Of a stretch of DNA of 64,000 nucleotides, positions 87 through 57,900 are shown piece by piece. The translations under genes and the position numbers were made by a program. Source of the stretch: Bolinopsis microptera (Eukaryota; Ctenophora; Tentaculata; Lobata; Bolinopsidae); NCBI RefSeq assembly GCF_026151205.1, contig NC_087081.1:12606340-12670339 (forward strand), given 5' to 3'. A model generated the notes under the pieces. The model did no database searches. It saw only the letters and a program-made list of their open reading frames with translations, and was not told the origin of the DNA. How positions within the stretch are numbered: position 1 is the stretch's first letter; each line of letters begins with the position of its first letter.

Positions 87-1113
87 TATATACGTAAGAC
101 GAGGAGGGCCCAACTATCAAGAAGGGTTAAAAGTGATGAAGAATTGTGGTGATATGCTGGGGGTACCAATGCACGTGTTCGGACCTGAGATACACATGAC
201 TGCTATTGTGGGCATGGCTTTGGGGAAAACTCCAGGTGAGACATGTTTCACTTTCACTTTCATTTTCAGTTTTACTCTCACTTTCACTTTCAAGGAAAAA
301 AACAGTTCATCAATTATCTGATAATTCCCATTTCCCAGTTCCGAACCGCACTGACACTGAAAGTAGCCTGAAAGACAACTTCCTGTTTGGTAAGCATGAT
401 ATAGACAGACGAACACCCCAACCTCCTAGCAGTACTGAGCCAGCAGAGAAGAGAGCTAGAAACGATCTGGACAAGAGGATACTGGGTGCAGGTGAATTTC
501 ATTTTAACTTTCTTCTTTTTTTTAGGGAGTGAGGGCACTATGGAGTTTGAAAATAAGCGAAAACATGGTGATATTCTTCATTTATTGGCACGTAATAGCT
601 TCTTGTAATTACATTATCTCATATAATTACTAATTAATTACCCTGGCAGGTAAGGAGCTTCTTGTAATTACATTATCTCATATAATTACTAATTAATTAC
701 CCTGGCAGGTAAGGAGCACTACTCTAATTACTAATTAATTACCCTGGCAGGTAAGGAGCTTCTTGTAATTACATTATCTCATATAATTACTAATTAATTA
801 CCCTGGCAGGTAAGGAGCTTCTTGTAATTACATTATCTCATATAATTACTAATTAATTACCCTGGCAGGTAAGGAGCTTCTTGTAATTACATTATCTCAT
901 ATAATTACTAATTAATTACCCTGGCAGGTAAGGAGCACTACTCTAATTACTAATTAATTACCCTGGCAGGTAAGGAGCACTACTCTCCCGACCAGTACAA
1001 CCTGTATGACAAGGACACAACCTGCCTAGTGTACGGTCTACAGATAAAAGCAGTGCAGGGCATGCTGGACTTTGACTGCTCGTGTAGGAGGGATAAACCT
1101 TCAGTTGCAGGTT

Positions 1114-1156
<43 letters not shown>

Positions 1157-4100
1157 GCTGACAGTTCTCTTCCCAAACAAAAAGCAACCCATAATACTCG
1201 GCCACAACATTCGCCTTTATCTTCAATTAAACTTTCACTTTCACTAAACATTTCACGAAACATTTCACTAAACATCTTTTCGCAGGAATAATCAACCCGT
1301 TCTCTGCTAACCACAACATCCGTCTTTACTTTGGACACAAGGAGATTAACGTGCCCGTTTATAAGAACATGGCTGACGCGTTGAAGAAACACCCTGATGT
1401 CAGTGTTCTCATCAGCTTCGCTTCCCTCAGATCTGCCTATTCTTCTACTATGAGCATGCTCAGGTAGAATTTTATCGATATTAAAATATGAATTGTGTCA
1501 AAATTTGTGTTTCATATAAATGGATTTCAAACCGTTAAAATGGATTGTTTTGAAATTCAAATCTACATATTTCATTTCCCTCAGTCACTCGAAACAGATC
1601 AAATTGATAGCTATAATAGCCGAGGGCATTCCTGAGAATATGACGAAGAAGATCAATAAACTTGCTGTTGAGAAGGGAGTTAGTATCGTAGGACCAGCAA
1701 CTGTAGGAGGAGTGAAACCTGGCTGCTTCAAAATAGGAAACACCGGTATAAAACATTTCCTTGTGTTTTTAAAGTATGATTAAATCCACTTTCTTGAGTT
1801 TTTCAAGAATATTCTGATCTGTATTCTAGCAATATATATAATAAGAAATACTGTCCTACTAAAATTGAGATTCTGATGAAGCAACTGCTAGATTAATATT
1901 TAATTAATATTCAACTGAACTAATAATGAATTATTGCTATAACCAATTAAGTGACTAATTTATTAATTACCAGGTGGAATGCTGGATAACATTCTGAAGA
2001 GCAAGTTATACAGACCAGGCTCAGTAGCGTATGTGTCCAGATCAGGAGGAATGAGTAACGAGCTAAACAACATAGTCAGTATCAACACTAACGGAGTATA
2101 CGAGGGAGTCGCTATCGGGGGTAATTTAAATTATTTAATATAATTACAGTTATAATTACTGTTCTATTGTGATTATCATCGTCAATTATAGTTACTTTCT
2201 TATTTTATATAATCATGATTTTAATTATTTCTGTGACTCACACTGTTACCAGGTGATCGTTACCAGTAACTAACACGGTTACCAGGTGACCGTTACCAGT
2301 AACTAACACTGTTACCAGGTGACCGTTACCAGTAACTAACACCGTTACCAGGTGACTGTTACCAGTAACTAACACCGTTACTAGGTGACCGTTACCAGGT
2401 GACCGTTACCCTGGTTATTGATTATTACTCAGACCGTTACCAGGTTACTCAGACCGTTACCAGGTTACTCACACCGTTACCCACACCGTTACTAGGTTAC
2501 TCACACCGTTACCAGGTTACTCACACCGTTACTCACACCGTTACCAGGTTACTCACACCGTTACTAGGTTACTCACACCGTTACTCACACCGTTACTCAC
2601 ACCGTTACTCACACCGTTACCAGGTTACTCACACCGTTACTAAGTTACTCACACCGTTACCAGGTTACTCACACCGTTACCAGGTTACTCACACTGTTAC
2701 TCACACCGTTACCAGGTTACTCACACCGTTACCAGGTTACTCACACCGTTACCAGGTTACTCACACCGTTACCAGGTTATTCACACCGTTACCAGGTTAC
2801 GCACACCGTTACTCACACCGTTACCAGGTGACCGTTACCCTGGTTCCAGTTTTATGGATCACATTAAGAGATACAACGCTAATCCCGACGTTAAGATGAT
2901 AATAGTATTGGGAGAAGTGGGAGGAGTTGAAGAGTACGACATAGTCTCCGCTATCAAATCTGGAGATATAAGAAAATCAGTAAGTTTAACGTCCGGGAGG
3001 GTAGGGCCGGGGCTATTATTAAAGATTTAAATTGTATTAAATGAAAGACCCCTGCTCCCATCAGTAGCTCAGTTTTGTTACTCAATTTTAATATTAACGT
3101 CAAGATGGGAGGATTTGAAATTTTAATCTAGGACTGGAATACCAGCTTCTGATTGGATAACTTTAATGATTTAGCCCCATGTCCGAGCTGTAATGTTCTT
3201 ATATTAGAACTATCAGTTTTGTTCCTCAGAACTTTGTAGTTCCTTATAGCTCCAAATTCAGACATTTTATCCACTTCCGCATTACGCAACCTAAATCTAA
3301 AGAATAGTAATTCTATTAGCTAACACGACAACATAGCTGATTATTGTTTATGACGTCATCACACGTTAGTGACGTCACTTTTCACAGGTCGTAGCATGGT
3401 GTATTGGAACATGTGCTGACTACTTCAGTACTGAAGTACAGTTTGGACACGCTGGATCGAACGCCAACAGCAAGTTGGAGACTGCTAGTGCTAAAAACTT
3501 GGCTTTACGCCAAGTCGGTGCCCATGTGCCTGACAGTTTCGACGATCTTGGCAAAACAATCAGGTACATTTACAGGAAGTCGCTAACTTGTTGGTTCATT
3601 CCTTAAATCAGTTTTTCGTATGAAAGGTTTCCCATTCTAATAATTACTAATTACAACTAATTACCTTTAATTACCTTGTCTCTCAGGAAAGTTTACGAGG
3701 AGCTAGTGGAGACAGGGGAGATAGTTCCAGAGCCGGAGATGCCACCCCCTCAGGTTCCCATAGACTTCAAGTGGGCTCAGGAACTCGGTAATTAGTTTCA
3801 CTTTCACTTTTACTTTCACTTTCACTATAATAAGTGATGATTCGAGCTGGAAATTCCACCTGTGCTTTTTGTTCCTCCAAATTAAACGTACAAACACATA
3901 TTCAATTATTTAAGCTAATTTATCGATTACGAGTTCCTAATTAGTTGATAAAAGTCCTAATGACCAGGTTTGGTTCGCAAACAGACCTCCTTTATCTCTG
4001 GTATTTGTGACGAGAGAGGAGAAGAGTTATTATATGCCGGGGTCCCTATGAGTGATGTTATCAAGGAGAACTTGGGAATAGGAGGTAGGTTCACTTTCAC

Positions 4101-4567
4101 TTTCTGTTTCACTTTCACTAAGTTGTGGCAGGTTTATTTATCTGACTTGTAACCGACTAATAAGAAGTTTCTTGTTGGTTAGAGGAGCGCGAGATTGTTT
4201 CATTTAGAAACTACACGATTTAAAGTTGTGATACTGCTCTAGATACAAACTATAACTGTTCTTCTCTGTCCAGGTGTAATCTCTCTGCTGTGGTTCCAAC
4301 GCAGAATGCCTGATTTCGCCTACAAATTTATAGAACTGTGTTTGATAGTTACAGCTGACCACGGACCTGCTGTGTCTGGGGCTCACAACACTATTGTCAC
4401 TGCTAGAGCTGGTAAAGATCTGGTGTCTTCTCTTACTAGTGGTCTTCTCACTATTGGTGACAGGTCAGTACACACAGACACACAGACAAACATTCATACT
4501 TACATACTTACATACATACATACTTACATACATACTTACATACATACTTACATACATACTTACATAC

Positions 4568-4598
<31 letters not shown>

Positions 4599-7500
4599 CA
4601 TACTTACATACTTACATACATACATTCATACTTACATACTTACATACATACTTACATACATACTTACATACTTACATACATACTTACATACTTACATACT
4701 TACATACTTACATACTTGCATACTTGCATACTTACATACTTGCATACTTACATACAGACATACAGACATACAGACATACAGACATACAGACATACAGACA
4801 TACAGACATACAGACATACAGACATACAGACATACAGACATACAGACATACAGACATACAGACATACAGACATACAGACATATAGATATACTTACATACT
4901 TACATACTTACATACTTACATAATCACATACTTACATACTTACATACTGACATACTGACATACAGACATACAGACATACAGACAAACATTCATACTTACA
5001 TACTTGCATACTTACATACATACTTAGTACTTACATACATACTTACATACTTACATACTTACATACTTGCATACTTACATACTTGCATACTTACATACTT
5101 ACATACAGACATACAGACATACAGACATACAGACATACAGACATACAGACATACAGACATACAGACATACAGACATACAGACATACAGACATACAGACAT
5201 ATATACATACAGACATATATACATACAGACATACAGACATACAGACATACAGACATACAGACATACAGACATACAGACATACAGACATACAGGCATACAG
5301 ACATACAGACATACAGACATACAGACATACAGACATACAGACATACAGACATACAGACATACAGACATATAGATATACTTACATACTTACATACTTACAT
5401 ACTTACATAATTACATACTTACATACTTACATACTTACATACTGACATACTGACATACAGACATACAGACATACAGACATACAGACATACAGACATACAG
5501 ACATACAGACATACAGACATACAGACATACAGACATACAGACATACAGACATACAGACATACAGACATACAGACATACAGACATTCAGACATACAGACAT
5601 ATATACATACAGACATATATACATACATACATACAGACATACAGACATACAGACATACAGACATACAGACATACAGACATACAGACATACAGGCATACAG
5701 ACATACAGACATACAGACATACAGACATACAGACATACAGACATACAGACATACAGACATACAGACATACAGACATATAGATATACTTACATACTTACAT
5801 ACTTACATACTTACATAATTACATACTTACATACTTACATACTTACATACTGACATACTGACATACAGACATACAGACATACAGACATACAGACATACAG
5901 ACATACAGACATACAGACATACAGACATACATGACATACAGACATACAGACATACAGACATACAGACATACAGACATACAGACATACAGACAGGGATCGA
6001 CCGGGGACGAAATTTAGCCGGGGCCGGGGCCGGGACCAAGTTGAATCAGCCGGGGCCGGGATTAACCGGGATTTTGAAATGTTGCCAAGGCCGGGGCCGG
6101 GATTGGCTAAAATATGCCGGGGCCGGGGCCGGGATTTTTTAATCTAATTTTGAAAATTTTTGAAAGTTTCCGGAAACTCGTATCAATGTGAGCTAGCTTC
6201 AAGGTCAACCTAGAAGGCAGCTACACATTATTTCTCTTTAATAGTTAAATGTAACTCAGAAAGGCTTTCTTGTAGCCGGACATAGATATTTCGGACACTG
6301 AAGCTGACACCGGAAACGAGTAGTCATCTGTGATCTGATGACTATCATCATCATCTGCATTGAGTCGGCCTCACTCTCTACTGTTTTTTGCTCCTGAACT
6401 AAATTGTTTGACGTTTGTACTAGTTATATGAAAGAAAACGGTACACGAACACATGACTTTACTCGAACTTTTTAATCAACCTCGAACTTTTTTAATCAAC
6501 ATTAATATTTTACATTCTTTGTAAATTCAAAGTTGAAATTTTCTGAATATCAAACTGGAATGATGTCAAGTCCTCGTATTTATATTTTTCACTCGATCTC
6601 ATGTTACCGAAAATTTTGTGTTTAATTTAAGTCTAAAAATCAAGATAAATTCTGATAATCTATCGGTTTAAATTGAGGCAGAAAATACGAGAAATCCCGG
6701 CAAAATCCCGGCAAAAATTGACAAAAAGCCGGGGCGGGGGCCGGGATTGGGGGCCTCTGGCCGGGGCCGGGATTTTGAAAATTGTTTTGCCGGGGCCGGG
6801 GAAAAACACAAATTCCGGCCGTATCCGGGGCCGGGATCCCGGTCGATCACTGCATACAGACATACTTACATACAGACATACAGACATACAGACATACAGA
6901 CATACAGACATACAGACATACAGACATACAGACATACAGACATACAGACATACAGACATACAGACATACAGACATACAGACATACAGACATACAGACATA
7001 CAGACATACAGACATACTTACAGACATACACGCTGACTTATAAACAGACTAATAAAGATACAACAGGGTATTTACTATTTAGATAAATAACAAACAATAA
7101 ACAAGCCCACAATTCCACAGATTTGGAGGAGCTCTGGATGAGTCAGCCCGACAGTTCTCTAACGCATACGACAAGGGTGAAACACCTCTGGAGTTTGTTA
7201 ATGAGATGAAATGCTCTCACAAGTACATCCAGGTCAGTAATGTACTACCAATTAGAGCTGTTTCGCTTTCACTTTATATCACTTTCACTGAGATCACTTT
7301 CACTTTAAATCACTATCACTGGACTGTGTTGCTCACTAATCAGTAGTCCCTATTATCATATTTTAATGACTGAGTACTCAAGCCTGTCATACGATCGTTC
7401 ATATATTTTAATTATACATATAATAATTGCAGGGTATTGGACACCGAGTAAAGTCCCTAAATAATCCTGACATGCGCGTCAGCTCTCTAGCGGACTTTGC

Positions 7501-7994
7501 TAAAGCTAACTTCCCCGCTACTCCACTCTTTGATTATGCGAGACAGGTAGAGAAAATCACTACCTCCAAGAAACCCAATCTGATCCTGAATGTGGACGGC
7601 TGTATTGCGACTCTCTTTGTGGATTTGTTATACCAGAGTGGATCGTTCAGTGTGGAGGAGGCTAGAGATCTTATAGATATAGGGTGCCTTAACGCTCTGT
7701 TTGTGGCAGGCAGGAGTATTGGTTTTATTGGTTAGTTTAATTAATATCTTTCTTTTGTATTTTCTGTGTCGCCTAGACGGCAGTATTGAAATGGTGTCGA
7801 AAATGTAATTTTACAAATGGAAAATGATAGGTTATCTAATCCCTTTAATGAATGCTTTATTTATTTAATGAGTTTGTTATCTCTTTAATGAGTGTGATTT
7901 TCCAGGCCACTATCTCGACCAGAAGAGATTGAAGCAGGGCTTGTACAGACATCCTTGGGACGACATCGCCTACATGAACCCCGGTGGGGATTAA
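87..7994 (+). CDS. ACLY: ATP-citrate lyase, C-terminal two-thirds (5' end outside window)
   Basis: Cytosolic enzyme that cleaves citrate with ATP and CoA to acetyl-CoA and oxaloacetate, feeding lipid synthesis and acetylation. Exons read at about 87-235, 339-491, 970-1110, 1286-1463, 1585-1745, 1974-2120, 2828-2979, 3388-3563, 3687-3787, 3968-4084, 4274-4463, 7121-7232, 7433-7730 and 7906-7994 (TAA). Phases join cleanly. The protein starts in the citrate-binding region ([14 protein letters not shown]) and passes a poorly conserved linker (exon 2). It then enters the succinyl-CoA-synthetase-like part, with the phospho-histidine motif FGHAG in the 3388 exon. It ends in the citrate-synthase-like domain ([28 protein letters not shown]) and the family terminus [19 protein letters not shown]. 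The 2.66-kb intron 11 is nearly all microsatellite. The third exon uses the weak donor GTTTCA. Identity is certain from near-continuous similarity; exon 1 start is approximate. Confidence 0.96.
597..969 (+). repeat. Tandem array containing seven copies of a 3' splice site
   Basis: Units of about 59 bp and a shorter 38-bp form repeat head to tail through the second half of an ACLY intron. Each ends with CCCTGGCAG/GTAAGGAG, that is, the splice acceptor plus the first exon bases. Copies of CCCTGGCAG start at 641, 700, 742, 801, 860, 919 and 961. Only the last runs into the real exon at 970. Copies 2, 3 and 6 show that the duplicated piece can include eight or more exon bases. CAGGTAAG is also a perfect donor consensus. 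Confidence 0.93.
1111..1156 (+). repeat. (TTTCAC)n array directly after a splice donor
   Basis: Hexamer repeat TTTCAC, seven or so units, beginning at the donor GTTTCA of ACLY exon 3. Similar runs occur in other introns: 247-293, 1231-1246, 3796-3826, 4091-4119 and 7261-7310 in ACLY, and 40891-40931 (as GTGAAA on this strand) in CFAP61. Five of these lie within about 60 bp of a donor. Confidence 0.9.
1768..1834 (+). repeat. Intronic segment also present at 18327-18395
   Basis: About 66 bp of ACLY intron 5 are repeated almost exactly at 18327-18395 in the same orientation. The shared core contains ATCCACTTTCTTGAG and ends at CTAGCAATAT. Confidence 0.85.
2236..2827 (+). repeat. Minisatellite built from an ACLY exon-start boundary
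   Basis: About 590 bp of short units of the type GTTACCAG/GTGACCGTTACC and TCACACCGTTACCAGGTTAC fill the end of intron 6. The real acceptor is the last TTACCAG at 2821-2827, and the exon opens GTGACCGTTACCCTGG. A 25-base copy of acceptor plus exon start is also present at about 2392-2416, followed by unrelated sequence. The array therefore carries many decoy acceptors and looks derived from the exon boundary. Confidence 0.9.
3016..3261 (+). repeat. 246-bp dispersed repeat, copy 1 (copy 2 at 18451-18696)
   Basis: Lies in ACLY intron 7. It matches 18451-18696 in the same orientation with only a handful of differences by eye. No open frame, terminal repeat or tail is visible, so the class is unknown. 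Confidence 0.88.
4464..5990 (+). repeat. Microsatellite block, (CATA/CTTA)n and (CATACAGA)n
   Basis: Starts a few bases after the ACLY donor at 4464 (GTCAGTACACACAGACAC) and runs for 1.5 kb as ACATACTT, ACAT and CATACAGA units. A segment near 4740-4990 is repeated as 5090-5460 and 5440-5870, giving a roughly 360-bp higher-order period. Long open frames in it are artefacts of the absence of stop codons in the repeat. Confidence 0.95.
5991..6852. mobile_element. Non-autonomous hAT-like element, 862 bp, inside the CATACAGA array
   Basis: Terminal inverted repeats: left CAGGGATCGACCGGG, right end reads CAGTGATCGACCGGGATC on the other strand. Both flanks are CATACAGA (5983-5990 and 6853-6860), an 8-bp duplication typical of hAT elements, although the surrounding array would supply the same word anyway. 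Both ends carry GC-rich subterminal repeats (GCCGGGGCCGGGA), while the middle is AT-rich and has no convincing open frame. Probably mobilised by a transposase encoded elsewhere. Confidence 0.75.
6853..7020 (+). repeat. (CATACAGA)n continuation
   Basis: The microsatellite resumes after the hAT-like insertion and ends about 100 bp before the acceptor of the ACLY exon at 7121. Confidence 0.93.
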
Positions 7995-13000: not shown

Positions 13001-16000
13001 AGACAGAAACTTTACCAATTTCCTGAAATAACAAAATTAACTGCAAATCATCTTACTAGATCATCATAATCTTCAAATCCTGACTTTACAAGAATATCGA
13101 AGAAATATTTAGCAATTTTAACAAAGGCTGCTGTAAGACTCACTGCAATTCGTAGTGAACTTGTTGAAGGTCGTCTAGCGTAGGTCGTAAAATGAGGAAC
13201 TCAGGAGTGTCTTTAAACTGTCTGCAGAATGACTCAATGTGTTTCCAGATTGTAAGAAGAAGCTGAAAATAGTTAGTATAATACTACTTCTTAGTTGTGA
13301 TACAGTTAGCATGCAGTGCTTTGTGAGAGTTCTAATTTAATTTAAGAGCTGCCAACTACGAGCCCTCCTTATTTGTTAGCAAGCATTAGATCATCTGGTG
13401 ACTGGTATTGTCAACAGCTTGTAAAATGCATGGTTTCAAGGCAAAATAAGAGTTTGTTTTGTGCCCGTTCATTTACCAACCTCAGCGGCTGCAACCCAGG
13501 ATAAGATATCGTTAGGTTTTACTTTAGGAGGAAGGATTGCTTTAGACAGATTCTCTCCGCCAGCTGACCACATGTGTAGATACTTCCTGCAGGAGTTGGA
13601 AACTTGGTTACAGACTTGGTTACTGACTTGGTTACTGACCTGGTTACTGACCTGGTTACTTACCTGGTTACTGACTTGGTTACTGACTTGGTTACAGATC
13701 TGGTTTCTAACCTGGTTACTGACCTGGTAACTGACCTGGTTACTGACCTGGTTACTGACTTGGTTACTGACTTGGTTACAGATCTGGTTTCTAACCTGGT
13801 TACTGACCTGGTTACTGACCTGGTTACTGACCTGGTTACTGACCTGGTTACTGACCTGGTTACTGACCTGACTACAGACTTGGTTACTGACCTGGTTACT
13901 GTAGGCTGATTGGATAACAGCTCAGTTAGCAGGAATACAAAATTGTAAGCGTTAGGAAGGCTTGATGTCAAGGACCCCACGCATGCATTCGATATCTGAG
14001 GTGGAGAGAGTTTTGTCAAGACCTTGATCATTTAGCTAAGCCTGTGGCAGCCTGCCACAAGCTTAAAAAGATGTGGAAGTCTGACCTTAGAAGAGGACTA
14101 AAGATCCGTCTATTTGTTGCTACTGTGGAGTCAATACTTCTTTATGGTTCTGAAACGTGGACGTTGACAGAGCAATTGAAGAAACGCATTGATGGCTGCT
14201 ACACTAGAATGCTAAGGATGGCACTTAACGTGGATTGGAAGCAGCGAAAAACCAACAAAGAAGTCTATGGCAACCTACCGAGAGCAACCATGAAGATCCA
14301 AGAGCGCAGGATGCGACTAGCAGGCCATATCCACCGGCACCCAGAACTAGTCGCAAACCGCTTGCTACTCTGGGAACCAACTCATGGGGTGCGGAGTAGG
14401 GGGAGACCAGCCATGACCTATGTTGATAGCCTACGAGCTGACACGGGTCTCAACGACACTGGAGAAATGGGCGGACTTAAGGCGGATAGAGTTTTATGGA
14501 GACAGCGCATCAATACTCGGACGCTGAAGCCGCCTTAAGTCAAGTAAGTCAGTGATCATTTTCAATTACTGGGATCTGAATATGGTCAATAAATGGTCAC
14601 AATTTCTAATTATTATTGATATCATATCACATCGTTTACTGAGAAAGCGAAAAAGACTCAAAAATACAAGTTAGCCCTCTACGGGCTGATATACATCCCA
14701 CACTGTAAGAGTAAAAAGGGGAGAGATTCAAATGTAATTATAACTAATTAATTAGTCGATAAGTTAATCATAACTTATATCATTGTATGATATAACATGA
14801 AATATACAACTAGTAAATACAATAGGATATAACCTGGTTAGCTAAGCTTAGAAGGACCACAATATTAGGATTCATACTTTTCAGCGTTTCAGCCATTGTG
14901 CCAATATCATCAAGTGCGGTTACACTGACTGTAGAGATTTGACACCAGGATACACCAAACTTCTGCAGTTACTTTGGTTACTATTATTATTACTTTGGTT
15001 ACTTAACTTATTATGATTACTTTTAATGTAAATAATAATCTAAACTTATCAGGTCAATTAACCAACATATTCCAATACTTCATATTCAGGATGTAAGATT
15101 GCATCAGTGCATCAAAGTTCGGACTGAATAAGCTTCAAAAATTATAATTACGTGATAGTTGATATAGTGTTACGACCTCTACTGAATGAATCACTAATCA
15201 GACGAAGAGTAATATTTGTATGTCTAACCTGGAGAGAAATGATATGTAGGCTGCCAAAACTTTGTTATCACAGACGGGGAGGGGACTGACATCTAGTAAT
15301 ATTTCCTTGTGCACGTCCACTACAGTGTCATAATACTGAAAACACGGCATTAAAAACTTTCCTTGTGTTTAGAATTTGTTTAAAATACATTGGATTTAAT
15401 TTATCAACCAGTAATTCTGTCACATGTTTGACGCATACCTTAGAATAGAGAGCCACCCCAGGAATGTTATTGATCTCAATGGTGTTGTCAATGTAGAGGT
15501 TCAAACGTTTCCCTTTCAGTATAGTGGCGAGGTCCTGGGTCTGGTATTTACTGAACACTACCTGTAGGTTAACTTAATGTAGGATAGCTTGTGTAGGATG
15601 ACTGTGGGTTAACTTAATGTAGGATAGCTTGTGTAGGATGACTGTGGGTTAACTTAATTCTAATACTGTTTTACTCTGAGGTACCCTGAGGCAACTACTT
15701 AATACCTCATAAAACGAAACTGAGTTATCATTTCAATATTTAATCATGATAAAGATAATAATTGTTGAGGATAGAGTTAAGGTATGGATGAAGTTTATGC
15801 AAAAGGATTAATTTTAAGGGTACGGATACGCTTTAAGTTTTAGTTTACCGGAAGATAAGTCTCCATAACATTCTTCATGTCCCAGACCTCCTGATAAAGG
15901 CCCCCTTTCTGTCCCTTCGTCAGACTGAGAACTGCAGGAACAGAGCTAGGTTGGGTAACTCCAGCGATAGCTAGCGCTCGTACCAACTCCTGAGCACAAA

Positions 16001-31700: not shown

Positions 31701-34700
31701 CCCTCCTGCTAAGAATTCAGCTGATGATTTGAACTGTTAAAAAGGGCGTATTTATATGTACTTAGCATTGCTCTAGTTATTTAGTCAGTCCCTTACATCG
31801 GAGCAGTATCATCCAGCATGCCTGCTTTTTGTTTGTGCATTTTTGACTTTCGAGATATAAATGTTGAGTTTATTTTACACGGTTAATCAAACTATTGCAG
31901 TTAAAACTAGTCTAACGTGTTCACTGTACCCTAACAACCCTCCAAATAGATAGCGATATTACCGAGTGAAATGTTGCTGCTGCTAACACAGCTGGTAGCT
32001 ACACTAGCTGCAGCTTCCACAGGTACTGTAAACCCCCGACTTACAGTTTGGCGACTTACTGTACCTCCTCTATTTTCACCAGACAATGTTTACTATTTCA
32101 GATTGATCTCACGTGATCCTTCAAAAGATAAATTTGATTGGCAATTATGATTTTGTGCAGAGAAAACCATTTGATTCTGAGACTTAAACATTAAAATCCC
32201 GATTTACCGTACCATTTTCCATCCCCTCAAACCATACTCCCTAGATAATATAACTCTTTGCCCTTCAGAGTGGACCACCGCCCCACTACTAGAGGAGTAT
32301 GACGAAGGATTTGACCCGGCCACCTCTACCGTACATCAGGAGTTCAACCCTAAAACCACCCTTATCAACGTCCGCATGACTATACTGCAGGATCCACTAC
32401 CTACAGAGTCACTCAGCTTCTACATCATAGTTGCTTTGTATGCTGGAGGAAACTATATCGCCGATGCTTCTATTTGGTATGAAAACTAAATAATAGTAAT
32501 TCTGATTGACCAGATTATTAAGTCCCTCTGAAGTCTGAGTCATTGATCGGTTAGTTTAAGTCACGGGACCAAAATAGAGCTATCTGATTGGTTAGTTCAA
32601 GTTACCAATATTCAGGTACGACATCAGCGAGGGGGTTATAGATGAGAGCGGACTGGAGTTGGAGTATAAGAAGTGGGACGATCTAAACAACAAAGAAACC
32701 ACGACAGATTGCTCCGACTATGATATTCTAACAGACTCCATACTAAGCACAGTGACCTGGGACCTGAGATCAGATGAATTTCTGGCCACAGTGAACGGAG
32801 ATGAACACACTAACATCACAGAGTGTGATAGTACGGAGTACACGTGGAGCAAGACAATAGAAACGGCGGGGATAGACGCAGTTATTGTCATGCTCTATGA
32901 TAGCTGGGGTGATGTGGTCCTGACCGAGTGGGTCCTGGCGGAGTACAGACTTCTTCCTAATGGTATTTATATATAACTAGCTGCTATTCTTTACCCCCTC
33001 GCTATACCCCACTTATTTTACTACCCTTGTCTGAGAGTATCCCCTCTCTCTAGTTGTCTCCCTACTTTTAGCATATCACTAAAATAAGCTCTCACCCCCA
33101 GAGTGTGCTACACTACCCTGGTTCATGATGAGAGTAACTCCTCCCGCTTCTCTACCCCTGAAGTCTGGTGAAACTGCCTCTCTGACCTGCCCTGATGTTG
33201 CCTACTCCATACAGACTGGAGACGAGTCTGTTGTTTGTGAGGGGGGCTCTGCTTTCGTCTTCAGCAAACAACCAGCTTGTTCAGCAGGTCAGTTAGATTT
33301 ATCAAATTATTGCTCGTTACTCGGCGCGACTACTTCGGCGCGAGTGAAAAAGCCAGCGACATGGCAGATAACGGTCCTTACCTCAGCAAGTCTGATCATT
33401 AAATTATAAATTCAAAAATAAAATTGGGTGACTTCATTAAAAAGTCTGATTTGAACTACAAGAGAAAGCCGGCCTCCTCCCCCCCTCCCCCCAACCCCCC
33501 AACCCCCCTTACGAACCTGATATCCTTACCACAGATATCGGCAATAACCATCCGCTTGATCAGGCGTCCCCGAAGAACCTTATTTAAACTAATTGATAAA
33601 GTCTCCCTTATCTAAACAAACCTGATCTGGACTAGATGATAAATTGTCCCTTTTCTAAACATACCTGATCTGGACTAGATGATAAATTGTCCCTTTTCTG
33701 AACATACCTGATCTGAACTAGATGATGAATTGTCCCTTTTCTAAACATACCTGATCTGAACTAGATGATGAAGAGCCTCCACAGTAGACTGGGGCTTGCT
33801 TTGTGACGTTGCACTATCGTACACGTTGTAATACATACAGCTCATCTCACACAGTCGTAAACACTCTCTGTGACACAAGTATTACTATTAGGGTCAAACT
33901 TTGAACCAAACATTTAGAGACCAATTGAAATGGTAATATTGAATATGAATATTTGGAACTACTATGTATTGATTGTGGGTATAAAATGAAATCTTTGTTC
34001 AACTTAAAATTGTTGTTTTACTTAATTAAGGAATATGAAAATTACTGAAGAAACCATTAATTTCTGATAAAAATATATACATCCTGTATATTTAGTTCTG
34101 AACACGGATAATTATCAAATTATAGGAACTCAATTATAGAGAATCACAAAAATACCTGAGGAAGAACTTGGTAAAGTTAGTGAATGTAGCAGACACAGCA
34201 CAGTGGTAGAGATGGCCATGTTCTCGAGGGGAATGTTGAGTAAAGTAGATGAAATCCTCCAGTCCATAGTGCGACCTCAGATATTCCGTATCCTAAGGTA
34301 GAACTAGCTGGTAATAATCTTCTACACATCTAAAAATAAATATAAGGAGAAAGCGCCGCAACAAATAACTGATGATACTGATAAATTAAACCAACCATTT
34401 CAGCCCTCATAATAGCAACTCCAATGATCTGTTTCCCACATTCCATTACAATTCCATAAAGTGGAGTTCCATCCTCGTCTCTCATTGCACTCAAATACTG
34501 ATTATAATCTGCTAGCACTGTACTCTTTCCTGTCAAATTTTAACAGTTAAAATTAGTAACTCAATACTTCTAAAGCAAGTCTTGACTAAACCTAATTCAA
34601 CAACTATCACTTGAAATCATATTAAAAAGTAGGTACAATTATCTCTGACTATATAAGTGTCTGAAGAAATTCATCAAATGATAATGTTTTAAAATGCCCC

Positions 34701-51893: not shown

Positions 51894-51925
<32 letters not shown>

Positions 51926-54900
51926 CTCCTCCTCCTCCTCCTCCTCCTCCTCCTCTTCCACCTTCTCCTCCTCCTCCTCCTCAGCCATCCTCCTCAGTCC
52001 TCCTCAGTCCTCTTCCTCTGCAGTCCTCATCATCCTCCTCAGTCCTCCTCCTCCTGGGTCCTCCTCCTCCTCTTCATCCTCCTCATCTTCCTCCTCAGTC
52101 CTCAGTCCTTCTCCTCAGTCCTCCTCCTCATCCTTTTCGTCAGTACTCCTCCTCCTCAGTCCTCCCCCAGTCCCCCTCCTCCTCCTATTCAGTCCTCCTC
52201 CTCCTCCTCCTCAGTTCTCCTCCTTCTCATTCCTCCTTCTGAGTCCTCCTCATTCCTCCTTCTGAGTCCTCCTCCTCCTCCTTCTCCTGAGTCCTCCTCC
52301 TGGGTCCTCTTTCTCCTCCTCCTTCTCAGTCCTCCTCCTCCTCCCTCTCAGTCATCCTCCTCAGTCATCCTCCTCAGCCATCCTCCTCAGCCATCCTCTT
52401 CAGCGATCCTCCTCAGTACTCCTCAGTCCTCCTCCTTCTCAGTCCTCCTCAGTCCTCCTCCTCAGTCATCCTTCTCCTCCTCCTCCTCCAGGGGGATTCC
52501 GTTTTTTCCGTTCGGAACCCTATATTATCAAAACGGACAAAAAATAGAGCGGACAAAAACGGACAAAAAATAACAAAAATGGAAATAATATTTAGATGCT
52601 TCCTCCTCCTCCTCAGTCTTCCTCAGTCATCCTCCTACTCCTCCTGAGTCCTTCTCCTGGGTCCTCCTCCTGGGACCTCCTCCTCTTGGGTCCACCTCCT
52701 CTTCATCCTCCTCCTATTCCTCCTCAGTCCTCAGTTCTCCTCCTCAGCTCAGTCCTCCTTCTCAGTCCTCCTCCTCATCCTTTTCCTCAGTCCTCCTCCT
52801 CAGTCCTGCCCAGTCCCCCTCCTCCTCCTATTCACTCCTCCTCCTCCTCCTCCTCCTCCTCCTCCTCCTCAGTCCTCCTCCTCCTCAGTCCTCCTCCTTC
52901 TCAGTCCTCCTCCTCCTCCTCAGTCCTCCTCCTCAGTCATCCTCCTCAGTCCTTCTCCTCCTCAGTCCTTCTCCTCTTCCTCCTCCTCCTCAGTCTTCCT
53001 CATATTCCTCAGTCCTCCCCCAGTCACCCTCCTCCTCATCCTCATCCTCCTCATCAGTCCTCCTTCGCCTTCTCAGTCCTCCTCTTCAGTCCTCCTCCTC
53101 CTCCTTTTCCTGGTTCCTCCTCCTCAGTCCGCATTCTCCTCCTCAGTCCTTCTCAGTCCTTTCCCCAGTCACCCTCCTCCTCATCCTCCTCATCAGTCCT
53201 CCTTCTCCTTAGTCCTCCTCCTCAGTCCTCCTCCTCCTCCTGGGTTCTCCTCCTGGATCCCTCTTCTCCTCCTCAGTCCTTCTCATCCTCCTCAGTTATC
53301 CTCCTCCTCCTCCTTCTCCTCCTGGGTCCTCCTCCTTCTGCTCACCAGTCCTCCTCCTCAGTCCTCCTCATCCTCTTCATCCACTTACTTCTCCTCCTCA
53401 TCAGTCCTCATCAGTCCTCCTCCTCCCAAGTCATCCTCCTCCTCCTGGGGCCTTTTCCTGTGTCCTCCTCCTCCTGGGTCCTCCTCCTCAGTCCTCCTCC
53501 TCTTCCTTCTCCTCAGTCCTTCTCCTCCTCAGTCCTTCTCCCCTTCCTCCTCCTCAGTCTTCCTCCTCCTCAATCCTTTCCCCAGTCACCCTCCTCCTCA
53601 TCCTCATCCTCCTCATCAGTCCTCCTTCTCCTTCTCAGTCCTCCTTCTCCTCTTCTTCCTGGTTCCTCCTCCTGGGTCCTCCTTCTCCTCCTCAGTCCTC
53701 CTCCTCTTCCTCCTCCTCCTGGGTCCTCCTGATCCTCCTCAGTCTTCTTTCTCCTTCTACTCCTCAGTCCTCCTCCTCCTCAATCCTCCTCTTCCTCCTA
53801 AGTCCTCCCCTCCTCAGTCCTCCTAAGTCCTCCCATTCTCAGTCCTCCTCCTCATCAGTCCTCTTCACCAGTCCTCCTCCTCAGTCCTCCTTATCCTCAT
53901 CCTTCATCTCCTTCCTTCATCTCCTTTCTCCTCCTCATCCTCCTCATACACCTCCTCCTCATCAGTCCTCCTCCTCACTGCTCACTCCTTCTCCTCCTCC
54001 TCCTCCTCCTCCTCCTCGTCCTTAGTCCTCTTTATCAGTCCTCATCAGTCCTCATCAGTCCTCCTCCTCCCCAGTCCTCCTTTTGGGGCCTTTTCCTGGG
54101 TCCTCCTCCTGGGTCCTCCTCCTCTTGGGTCCTCCTCCTCTTGGGTCCTCCTCCTCATCCTTCTCCTTAGTCCTCCTCCTCCTCAGTCCTCCTCTTGAGT
54201 CCTTCTTCTCCTCCTCCTCCTATTCATTCCTCCTCCTCAGTTCTCCTTCTCAGTCTCACTCCTCCTTCTCAGTCCTCCTTCTCCTCTTCTTCCTGGTTCC
54301 TCCTCCTGGGTCCTCCTTCTCCTCCTCAGTCCTCCTCCTCTTCCTCCTCCTCCTGGGTCCTCCTGATCCTCCTCAGTCTTCTTTCTCCTTCTACTCCTCA
54401 GTCCTCCTCCTCCTCAATCCTCCTCTTCCTCCTAAGTCCTCCCCTCCTCAGTCCTCCTAAGTCCTCCCATTCTCAGTCCTCCTCCTCATCAGTCCTCTTC
54501 ACCAGTCCTCCTCCTCAGTCCTCCTTATCCTCATCCTTCATCTCCTTCCTTCATCTCCTTTCTCCTCCTCATCCTCCTCATACACATCCTCCTCATCAGT
54601 CCTCCTCCTCACTGCTCACTCCTTCTCCTCCTCCTCCTCCTCCTCCTCCTCCTCGTCCTTAGTCCTCTTTATCAGTCCTCATCAGTCCTCATCAGTCCTC
54701 CTCCTCCCCAGTCCTCCTTTTGGGGCCTTTTCCTGGGTCCTCCTCCTGGGTCCTCCTCCTCTTGGGTCCTCCTCCTCTTGGGTCCTCCTCCTCATCCTTC
54801 TCCTTAGTCCTCCTCCTCCTCAGTCCTCCTCTTGAGTCCTTCTTCTCCTCCTCCTCCTATTCATTCCTCCTCCTCAGTTCTCCTTCTCAGTCTCACTCCT

Positions 54901-57900
54901 CCTTCTCAGTCCTCCTCCTCCTCTTCTTCCTGGTTCCTCCTCTTGGGTTCTCCTTCTCCTCCTCAGTCCTCCTCCTCTTCCTCCTCTTCCTGGGTCCTCC
55001 TGATCCTCCTCAGTCTTCTTCCTCCTTCTGCTCCTCAGTCCTCCTCCTGCTCAATCCTCCTCTTCCTCCCAAGTCCTCCCCTCCTCTTCCTCCTAAGTCC
55101 TCCCCTTCTCAGTCCTCCTCCTCATCAGTCCTCTTCACCAGTCCTCCTCCTCAGTCCTCCTTATCCTCATCCTTTATCTCCTTTCTCCTCCTCATCCTCC
55201 TCATACACTTCCTTCTCCTCATCAGTCCTCCTCCTCACTCCTCAGTCCTTCTCCTCCTTCTCCTCCTCCTCGTCCTTAGTCCTCTTTATCAGTCCTCATC
55301 AGTCCTCATCGGTCCTCCTCCTCCCCAGTCCTCCTCATGGGGCCTTTTCCTGGGTCCTCCTCCTCTTGGGTCCTCCTCCTCTTGGGTCCTCCTCCTTTTG
55401 AGTCCTTCTTCTCCTCCTCCTATTCATTCCTCCTCCTCAGTTCTCCTTCTCAGTCTCACTCCTCCTCAGCCCCCCTCCTCTCCCTCCTCAGTCCCCCCTC
55501 CTCCTTTTCCTCTCTTTCATCTCTTAATAATTTGTTCAATTTATAATTATTGTTGGTGTTATTGTTAACATAATTTATTGTTATATACTAAAATGTTTTT
55601 AAGCGCATTTGAGTCTGACTCAAAATGTGCTCAAGAATCTTTGTGTTTAACAAAGTTTTACTCTCCAGTAATAAAACTTTTCATCCCTTTTTATGTTATT
55701 AAAAAATGTGTAGACTATTCTTTGTGCCTAATTGAAGATTAAAAGTTTGAGAAAGGACCATGGTCATTAACCGGGCTACCCATTTCTGCAGATAGCCTGT
55801 TACAAATTGTGGAGAAAATTTAAATCAAAAGTTACAATTTTTGTCCGTTTTTGTCCGTTTTTGTCCGTTTGGCAGCTATATTTTCAAAACGGACAAAAAT
55901 TAACGGACAAAAACGGACAAAAAATAACATGATCCCCCCCCCCCCCCCCCCCCTAGTTAGTGGATTTTGACACCTGATAGCGATTAACCGATCAGTCAGC
56001 CAATAGTATCGACCAATCATACTGACTAATCAGTGTCACGTGACTTATGACTAATTACTGTTACGTCAAAACAAACCAGCTGTACTTATTAACACATACT
56101 TTCATGTGTTAAGCATGAGCAGCTATTTACGTTAAACTATTTCAGTTAGGAAACTTCATTCCTTTGGTCGGTGGTCCAGAATTTGCAAGCTGTTTGTTGG
56201 TAAGTTACTGTACATAGTACGATATCTCGATTTAAGTTAATAACCTCACCAAGATGTTGGTTTTATAAAAGCAGTTTAACTTCAGCAAGCATTTACTTCA
56301 CAAAAGTAGAAGATCCTTTCAATAAAAATTGGGCTATTGAAAATTAAATCAGCATAAACATCCCATTCTTTTGCTACCAGGTAAAAATAAAATAGAAGTA
56401 CGGATATATTCTGCTAATATTTGTTATTATTTCAGCCTCCCCTTGAGAATTTAGCCACAGTAGAAGAAACAGTCGTTAGAGAGAAGGTGTGTAGTGTTCT
56501 CATAGGTTACGTCATGACGTCATGACAGTATAATTATTATATTACACTTTTGTCATGATTAAATATCGTATTAATGTGGTTATTGTTGAAACGACCGCGT
56601 CGATTGTTTAGAACATTCCATCAGTAATCAGTTAGACAATCAAAAGCTTTCAAGATGCAGTGCCCCGCCTTAAAAGTTATGACGTCTCGATAACCCTAAT
56701 TTAGATTTTCGTCGCTGTAAGCGGCAAGATAAAACTAAGATTTCTTATCGCGCGTTACGCGCGGCACTGCTGCTAGCGTCCACAACTCTTAAATATGCGC
56801 GTAATATCATACAAAATGTGTAGTAGTCAGCATGCTGTCACGCACTTATTTTGGGTATAGTCTAATTATTTTAATTAATTGTAACCACCCTACGCGCGTG
56901 GGGTGGACTCCTGGGGTGGACTTTTATTCAGCGCGTATTTTGTAGCCTGTTCAACTTGACGTTTTGATTCGTTACTATCTCAATGTCACAGATACACAGA
57001 ATGTGAGGTGATCATCTTAAAGAGAAACGTCTTAGCTTTCACCTGGTGTAAAGTTTATCTTTGTACTCAAAATATAGCTCGCTCAGTGTGCAATAGAAGT
57101 TGACAATACAATAACCACGTCTGCGACCGGTCGTCAGATACCGGAGTGTTGCACAAAATTGGGTCCCTAAATTAAAATTCTATGACACAGTTACCATGCA
57201 GAAATGTCTGGAGTAACATTTGGTGAAAATTTGAAGGGTCTACTGTAAATATTGCAAAAGTTATTGAAAACAAACTAGCAGAAGTTTTTGGGAAAATTTC
57301 AAATTTTGTACGTAGTGGGGTCTACAGGGGTGGACTCTTGCGGCGCGCATCTGACGGAGTGGCTTTTTCAACAGCCGTCAGTACGGCCAATATCAGAGCA
57401 CAAATTATTGTGAGTAAGACCTTAATGATCAGCTATGAACCCCTCACTAGAGTAGTAACCGTATCTAAAAACAAGGAAATGTTATTCCGTCAAAGCTCAA
57501 ATTTTTTACTCTTCTCAGTGCAGTTAGTGTTACTATGAATGTACTAGCTAAGTATCGTTGATCGTAGCTGCATTACACAGTAGAAAGTAACCAAGGAAGA
57601 CTGCTGATTAACGAAGCAATTTCAACGTGAACAGTTCCAAAATACATAATCATGGCGACGATAGTTCAACTTGAACCTTTATAGTTTTTACAGTCTAAAA
57701 TCACAATAAAATCACGTGAACTGCAAATCACAAAATCAAATCACTCAAATCTGATAGTCCCGTTACAGTACGCTTTCGTGACAACCTCAACGCTTAAAAA
57801 ATAAATATTATCCAGTCTTGTGACCACCGATGGCCCTAACTCTCCCTTGTCCGCGAGGAGCATCGTTGCGACCATGGGGTTTCAGTTCTTTGTTCTTCCC

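Follow-up and report, generated by a model that had tools for sequence, protein, structure and literature searches.

Tandem duplications over intron/exon boundaries have been described in amphioxus under the name of mirages, of a 5' or a 3' type, the lancelet genes named in these sources being Adh3, those of the globins BflGb6 and BflGb9, TnC and PGBD5 (PMC3087553, PMC3902484). Many mirage units carry AG/GT, the length of the mirages differs between haplotypes, and Adh3 data together with RT-PCR on the globins were taken to show that regular splicing is undisturbed by them (PMC3087553). Three other systems are close. In segmentally duplicated human genes, internal tandem repeats located at exon-intron boundaries are reported to alter splicing via novel introns (PMC2812944); in potato, one boundary-crossing duplication gave rise to a new intron (PMC4974935); and human genes contain AG/GT sites able to work as either donor or acceptor, including tandem ones as in the UBC array (PMC10809524).

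A comparable array lies in the window analysed here, a stretch of 64,000 nucleotides of the ctenophore Bolinopsis microptera (contig NC_087081.1, positions 12,606,340 to 12,670,339), to which all coordinates refer unless another locus is named. The first-pass annotation had described seven tandem, sequence-equivalent 3' splice sites in front of one exon of ACLY, and both the sites and the gene were confirmed. The gene was read by joining 14 exon pieces from the window into an open frame, the first piece starting at position 161, an arbitrary cut; the exon near 7731 properly ends at 7730, so that the last exon of this join is out of frame, which leaves the arrays unaffected. Of the resulting translation, 667 residues aligned end to end with ATP-citrate synthase chains, the best match being 9r90 (E 4.9e-286), and 6hxh, named as human, matched residues 86-667 (E 2.6e-278). 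Upstream of the array is the exon 339..491 (+ strand), which encodes part of the linker and ends at 491 with the donor GCAG/gtgaat; behind the array is the exon 970..1110 (+ strand, 141 nt, phase 1), whose first G is shared with the preceding exon. Both exons are supported by the joined frame and the alignment. The intron between them (492-969) is 478 nt long, its joint 491/970 is in phase 1, and the ACLY protein runs on unbroken when the acceptor at 970 is used. This joint presumably falls in the ACLY linker, ahead of the citryl-CoA synthetase part. GT forms the first bases of 6 of the 13 exons that follow ACLY introns in the window, including both exons preceded by arrays.

The array proper occupies 597..969 (+ strand) and repeats the 3' end of the intron together with the 5' end of the exon in six whole units and a partial one; the start at 597 had been correctly placed, whereas the end, put at 1110, had included the exon. 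Seven exact CAG/GTAAGG junctions, the last of which is the exon's own, have their exon-side positions at 650, 709, 751, 810, 869, 928 and 970, and the exact word CAGGTAAGG is present seven times. The six units between these junctions measure, in order, 59, 42, 59, 59, 59 and 42 bp, in place of the range of 38-60 bp given originally, and they comprise two distinct sequences with zero mismatches: a long GT...AG type of 59 bp (650..708, 751-809, 810-868 and 869-927, + strand) and a short one of 42 bp (709..750 and 928-969, + strand), the latter having 17 bases in common with the exon. Nine exon bases (GTAAGGAGC) are common to all seven junctions, in keeping with the earlier claim that the unit holds the acceptor and at least eight bases of the exon. 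The repeat unit thus spans an authentic intron/exon boundary, with 9-17 exon bases in every unit and an exon supported as ACLY. The 163 bases 597-759 recur unchanged at 816-978. At the left edge of the array (586..604, + strand) we read by eye a degenerate eighth junction, TGGCACGTAATAGCTTCTTG, with AC instead of AG, which may be what is left of a further copy after decay, or else an imperfect match from which the first duplication started. The word CAGGTAAG occurs 16 times on both strands of 274,000 bases (the sample defined below), seven of them in this array, a clustering far above chance. When 85 bases from the array were searched against the whole assembly, at least 7 matches were obtained, all at the ACLY array, in one place of the assembly; all match counts from such searches are lower bounds.

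In all six cases, joining the donor at 491 to an upstream acceptor brought in a stop in frame, 8 or 15 codons after the junction. A wrong choice would thus have a graver effect than the insertion of intron sequence into the enzyme that the first-pass annotation had foreseen. The acceptor at 970 is predicted to keep the frame and to yield the normal ACLY protein. Silence of the array cannot be taken for granted, because transcription reaches the upstream acceptors before the last one and they match it in quality. Each of the seven junctions also places an acceptor and a donor side by side (AG/GTRAG), as at the ratchet points of recursive splicing: CAGGTAAGG matches 8 of the 9 positions of the donor consensus CAGGTAAGT and the gene's own donor at 491, CAGGTGAAT, matches 7, which bears out the proposal that CAG/GTAAGG has the sequence of a strong donor as well. 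The units contain a TACTAAT, branch-point-like when read by eye, with its A about 16 nt before the unit end. A first splice from 491 to any copy would recreate GCAG/GTAAGG, from which a second step could remove the remainder and give the same product; as each unit is a GT...AG cassette and every junction regenerates a donor, partial acceptor choices could be corrected. The donor word persists in the fully spliced mRNA where the 141-nt exon begins, and its use there is predicted to skip that exon in frame. The predicted RNA fold of 492-990 has an energy of -116.5 kcal/mol (z -3.0). Inspection by eye suggests a UUACC/GGUAA hairpin that could mask the donor of the ACLY junctions; the units of the DNMT1 array described below have no such hairpin.

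Like the amphioxus mirages, these are minisatellite-like copies across a boundary, at 3' or 5' sites, with AG/GT in their units and in unrelated genes of one genome; unlike the lancelet cases, with their RT-PCR and haplotype length variation, the ctenophore array is known here from genome sequence alone. The human repeats of PMC2812944 also lie in tandem at exon-intron boundaries, but that study presents them as variable repeats in recent paralogues and supports them with transcripts, whereas the ACLY units combine intron and exon and were read in genomic DNA only. In the potato case, as reported in PMC4974935, the duplicated segment likewise crosses an intron-exon boundary and carries a branch site, an acceptor and an exon-side GTAAG donor; in that gene, exon sequence was retained after one duplication, which produced a new intron in its own right, whereas several duplications took place inside one existing intron of ACLY and the predicted protein is unchanged. 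The UBC array shares tandem AG/GT words that can serve as acceptor or donor, but its repeats are described as coding and giving a variable protein, whereas the ACLY units are non-coding and bring stops (PMC10809524). Ratchet points, finally, share the juxtaposed intronic acceptor and donor and a donor regenerated after the first splice; those of flies are described as lying mostly in long introns, a description in which tandem arrays do not feature, whereas ACLY has seven identical sites in 478 nt (PMC8605326). Our literature search, which covered open-licence full texts, yielded no description of ctenophore arrays of this kind. The architecture is already known from the mirages; the novelty appears to lie in the host group and in how many arrays there are.

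A second, diverged array of the same kind was found at 2253..2827 (+ strand), within the ACLY intron 2121-2827, where 17 CAG/GT copies lie ahead of the real acceptor at 2828. The exon behind it (2828..2979, + strand), supported by the joined frame and the ACLY alignment, again shares its first G with the preceding exon. Its first 12 bases occur at least three times in the array and its first 18 are copied exactly at 2399-2416, the units varying from 20 to 76 bp and several copies being devoid of CAG/GT. This second array is older than the first. When 13 ACLY introns were scored for copies of the start of the following exon, two exceeded all 200 base shuffles (scores of 17 and 18 against shuffle maxima of 12 and 13), and these were the array introns before exons 970 and 2828. 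The intron 1111-1285 gave a borderline score of 13 against a maximum of 14 in 200 base shuffles; at 1179-1216 it holds a sequence that repeats, in degenerate form, the beginning of the ACLY exon that follows (from 1286).

Arrays of this architecture recur in the genome. We searched the whole assembly for short junction words present three times, with the reversed pattern as control. Triple CAGGTAAG at gaps of 25-55 bases gave at least 1007 matches against 24, and all among the matches listed fall in one huge array on contig C1, where we saw no evident exon at the start, the part examined. Triple CAGGTAAGA gave at least 96 matches (control 24) at 9 loci and triple CAGGTAAGG at least 86 (control 0) at 14 loci including ACLY, making 23 loci with one or the other. 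The flanks of 21 of the 22 loci other than ACLY were read by eye and unblinded. On this reading 15 of the 23, ACLY included, adjoin an open frame whose start or end coincides with the repeated AG/GT, namely all 9 of the CAGGTAAGA loci and 6 of the 14 CAGGTAAGG loci. Six have no such frame, two of them sharing one dispersed unit, and of the remaining two, one has array edges beyond the fetched flanks and the other has no fetched flanks. Arrays of this kind thus also occur away from junctions, given that 8 of the 23 loci have no adjoining exon shown. Among the 15, the weakest cases are L034 (a frame of 25 codons), L040 (an SR-type exon with barely more than CAG in common with the unit) and the paralogous pair L033/L041, of acceptor type, which has open frames and no homologues.

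Besides ACLY, homology supports the flanking exon at 4 of the 15 loci. A DNMT1 exon (E 2.4e-28) carries an acceptor-type array closely like that of ACLY, with 13 exon bases in the first unit. The other three are of donor type and lie at a DOCK7-like exon (E 1.9e-22), a kinesin DUF3694 exon (E 3.1e-18) and a KSR1-like exon (E 3.1e-5); with about 49 copies at the DOCK-like exon, some ctenophore arrays differ from the amphioxus mirages in having far more copies. Junction arrays are therefore present in several genes of this genome, at both 5' (DOCK-, kinesin- and KSR-like) and 3' (DNMT1) boundaries. Pfam searches left 5 of 9 flanking-exon pieces of a first set without a match at the cut-off and matched none of the 6 valid pieces of a second set, and the exons concerned are defined by their open frames; the nearest to the cut-off in the second set was a sushi domain (8e-4, 20.2 bits against 20.7 required). 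The same 57-bp donor-type array lies behind a sushi-like exon at C13:1521196 and C13:1709796 (L072-L074), two loci that are probably paralogues.

Recurrence was also assessed in a sample of 274 kb, consisting of the window and 21 further 10-kb stretches, one adjoining the window and the others taken at set positions along contigs C1 to C4. The motif YAGGTR was present in the TRF unit of 10 distinct arrays, 5 of which, in our own reading, span a junction beside an open frame: the two of ACLY, an acceptor-type array with about 23 exon bases and a few mismatches (L021:7855-8870) and two of donor type (L020:8986-9281 and L024:9242-9419). A sixth is a possible junction array and four are not at an evident exon. 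The sixth, at 33587-33769 on the minus strand of the window, is a 43-bp repeat of 4.3 copies with a TCAG/GTATG-like word in most units, possibly of donor type.

We consider the ACLY array to be a neutral minisatellite of the mirage type, invisible in the mRNA, with a probability of roughly 0.7. A segment across the 3' splice junction, made of the intron end and 9 to 17 exon bases, would have been duplicated in tandem with two breakpoints, giving the 59-bp and 42-bp types, and a 160-bp long-long-short block was probably itself copied again, as the recurrence of 597-759 at 816-978 suggests. Because the duplicated segment contains AG/GT, every copy starts with GT and ends with AG, and the whole array lies inside the intron. 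The mRNA would bear no sign of it as long as splicing goes to 970, or goes to an earlier junction and the regenerated donor GCAG/GTAAGG then serves to remove what remains. We infer an origin by slippage or unequal crossing-over, selective neutrality and a normal ACLY mRNA. The copy number or the perfect identity of the units could instead be an effect of the assembly, the true array being shorter, longer or less uniform: zero mismatches in six units could reflect consensus smoothing, the published Bolinopsis assembly was built with wtdbg from PacBio reads (PMC10232365) and one amphioxus mirage is held to be misassembled in its draft (PMC3087553). Such an artefact is very unlikely in view of the two unit types in irregular order, of a length of 373 bp that long reads span easily and of similar arrays with diverged copies elsewhere in the genome.

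Plain neutrality does not predict the pooled behaviour of the AG/GT columns, which would speak against it. Pooled over eight arrays, six of which were found with the word CAGGTAAG itself, these columns vary less than the rest (19/865 against 520/8642, Fisher P 4e-7), but the arrays disagree: the result rests mainly on L021 (0/92 against 164/928) and on the huge C1 array (2/208 against 258/2762), and the diverged array of ACLY runs the opposite way (12/80 against 28/320). Low variation in some diverged arrays would suit a stepwise removal of the intron, from donor 491 to an early junction, then from the regenerated GCAG/GTAAGG to a junction further down, and onward in the same way, with the copies acting as zero-length exons (ratchet points) that are possibly useful. 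We regard this as unlikely, even though the seven acceptor/donor juxtapositions each come with a branch-point-like TACTAAT and the regenerated donor comes closer to the consensus than donor 491 does. At 42 and 59 nt, the units approach or fall below the usual minimum size of introns, and the copies without CAG/GT in the second array indicate that some copies can be dispensed with in that array. Flies and mammals are known to splice recursively at sites of this kind, but the fly cases as described concern mostly long introns, against 478 nt here (PMC8605326). More speculatively, and with odds that we put well below even, AG/GT junctions of this genome might seed a class of splice-transparent minisatellites, which would grow because every unit is a GT...AG intron, be removed stepwise via chains of zero-length exons when longer, and form a standing source of new introns in this ctenophore.

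If the ACLY array is a neutral mirage, as we favour, the recurrence in an animal near the base of the tree of structures reported from lancelets would suggest a general mutational route, tandem duplication across splice junctions, which splicing can hide from selection. Identical acceptor/donor pairs at known spacing would also lend themselves to testing how the spliceosome decides between equivalent sites and to studying intron gain as it happens.

The enrichment of AGGT in tandem arrays as such was weak, and we do not claim that arrays are generally drawn to it. Among the four-base cores (up to 256) of triple in-register repeats in the 274 kb, AGGT ranked 25 and its complement ACCT 16; among 133 TRF arrays with a period of at least 15, YAGGTR was present in 11 rows (two of them being the array at 597-969) and six control motifs in 1 to 7. 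A test without an AGGT filter used 89 exons predicted by a small codon model, which gave ACLY exons exactly in 7 of 12 cases. Nearby copies were found at 6 acceptor and 6 donor junctions, against 31 mid-exon rows that were mostly simple repeats called exons; the array at 2828 was flagged and that at 970 missed. AG/GT as a general requirement for an acceptor array is ruled out by two loci. On the minus strand at 15562-15658, a predicted acceptor ACAG/GTAGTG marks the exact end of a 40-bp tandem repeat whose units carry the acceptor CACAG with neither exon bases nor GT, the following exon being supported by the codon model alone and giving no match in a Pfam search; L008 208-255 repeats CTCAG/AT. 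Other repeats are abundant in the window. About 3.6 kb of TCCTCCTCAG-like repeats at 51900-55503 form many pyrimidine tracts, each followed by CAG. TTTCAC-type arrays lie near the 5' ends of several ACLY introns (246-292, 1112-1156, 3796-3826 and 7266-7320), and the 2657-nt ACLY intron contains long arrays of ACATACAG-type octamers at 4470-5992 and 6853-7017, with GC-rich CCGGGGCCGGG stretches between them.
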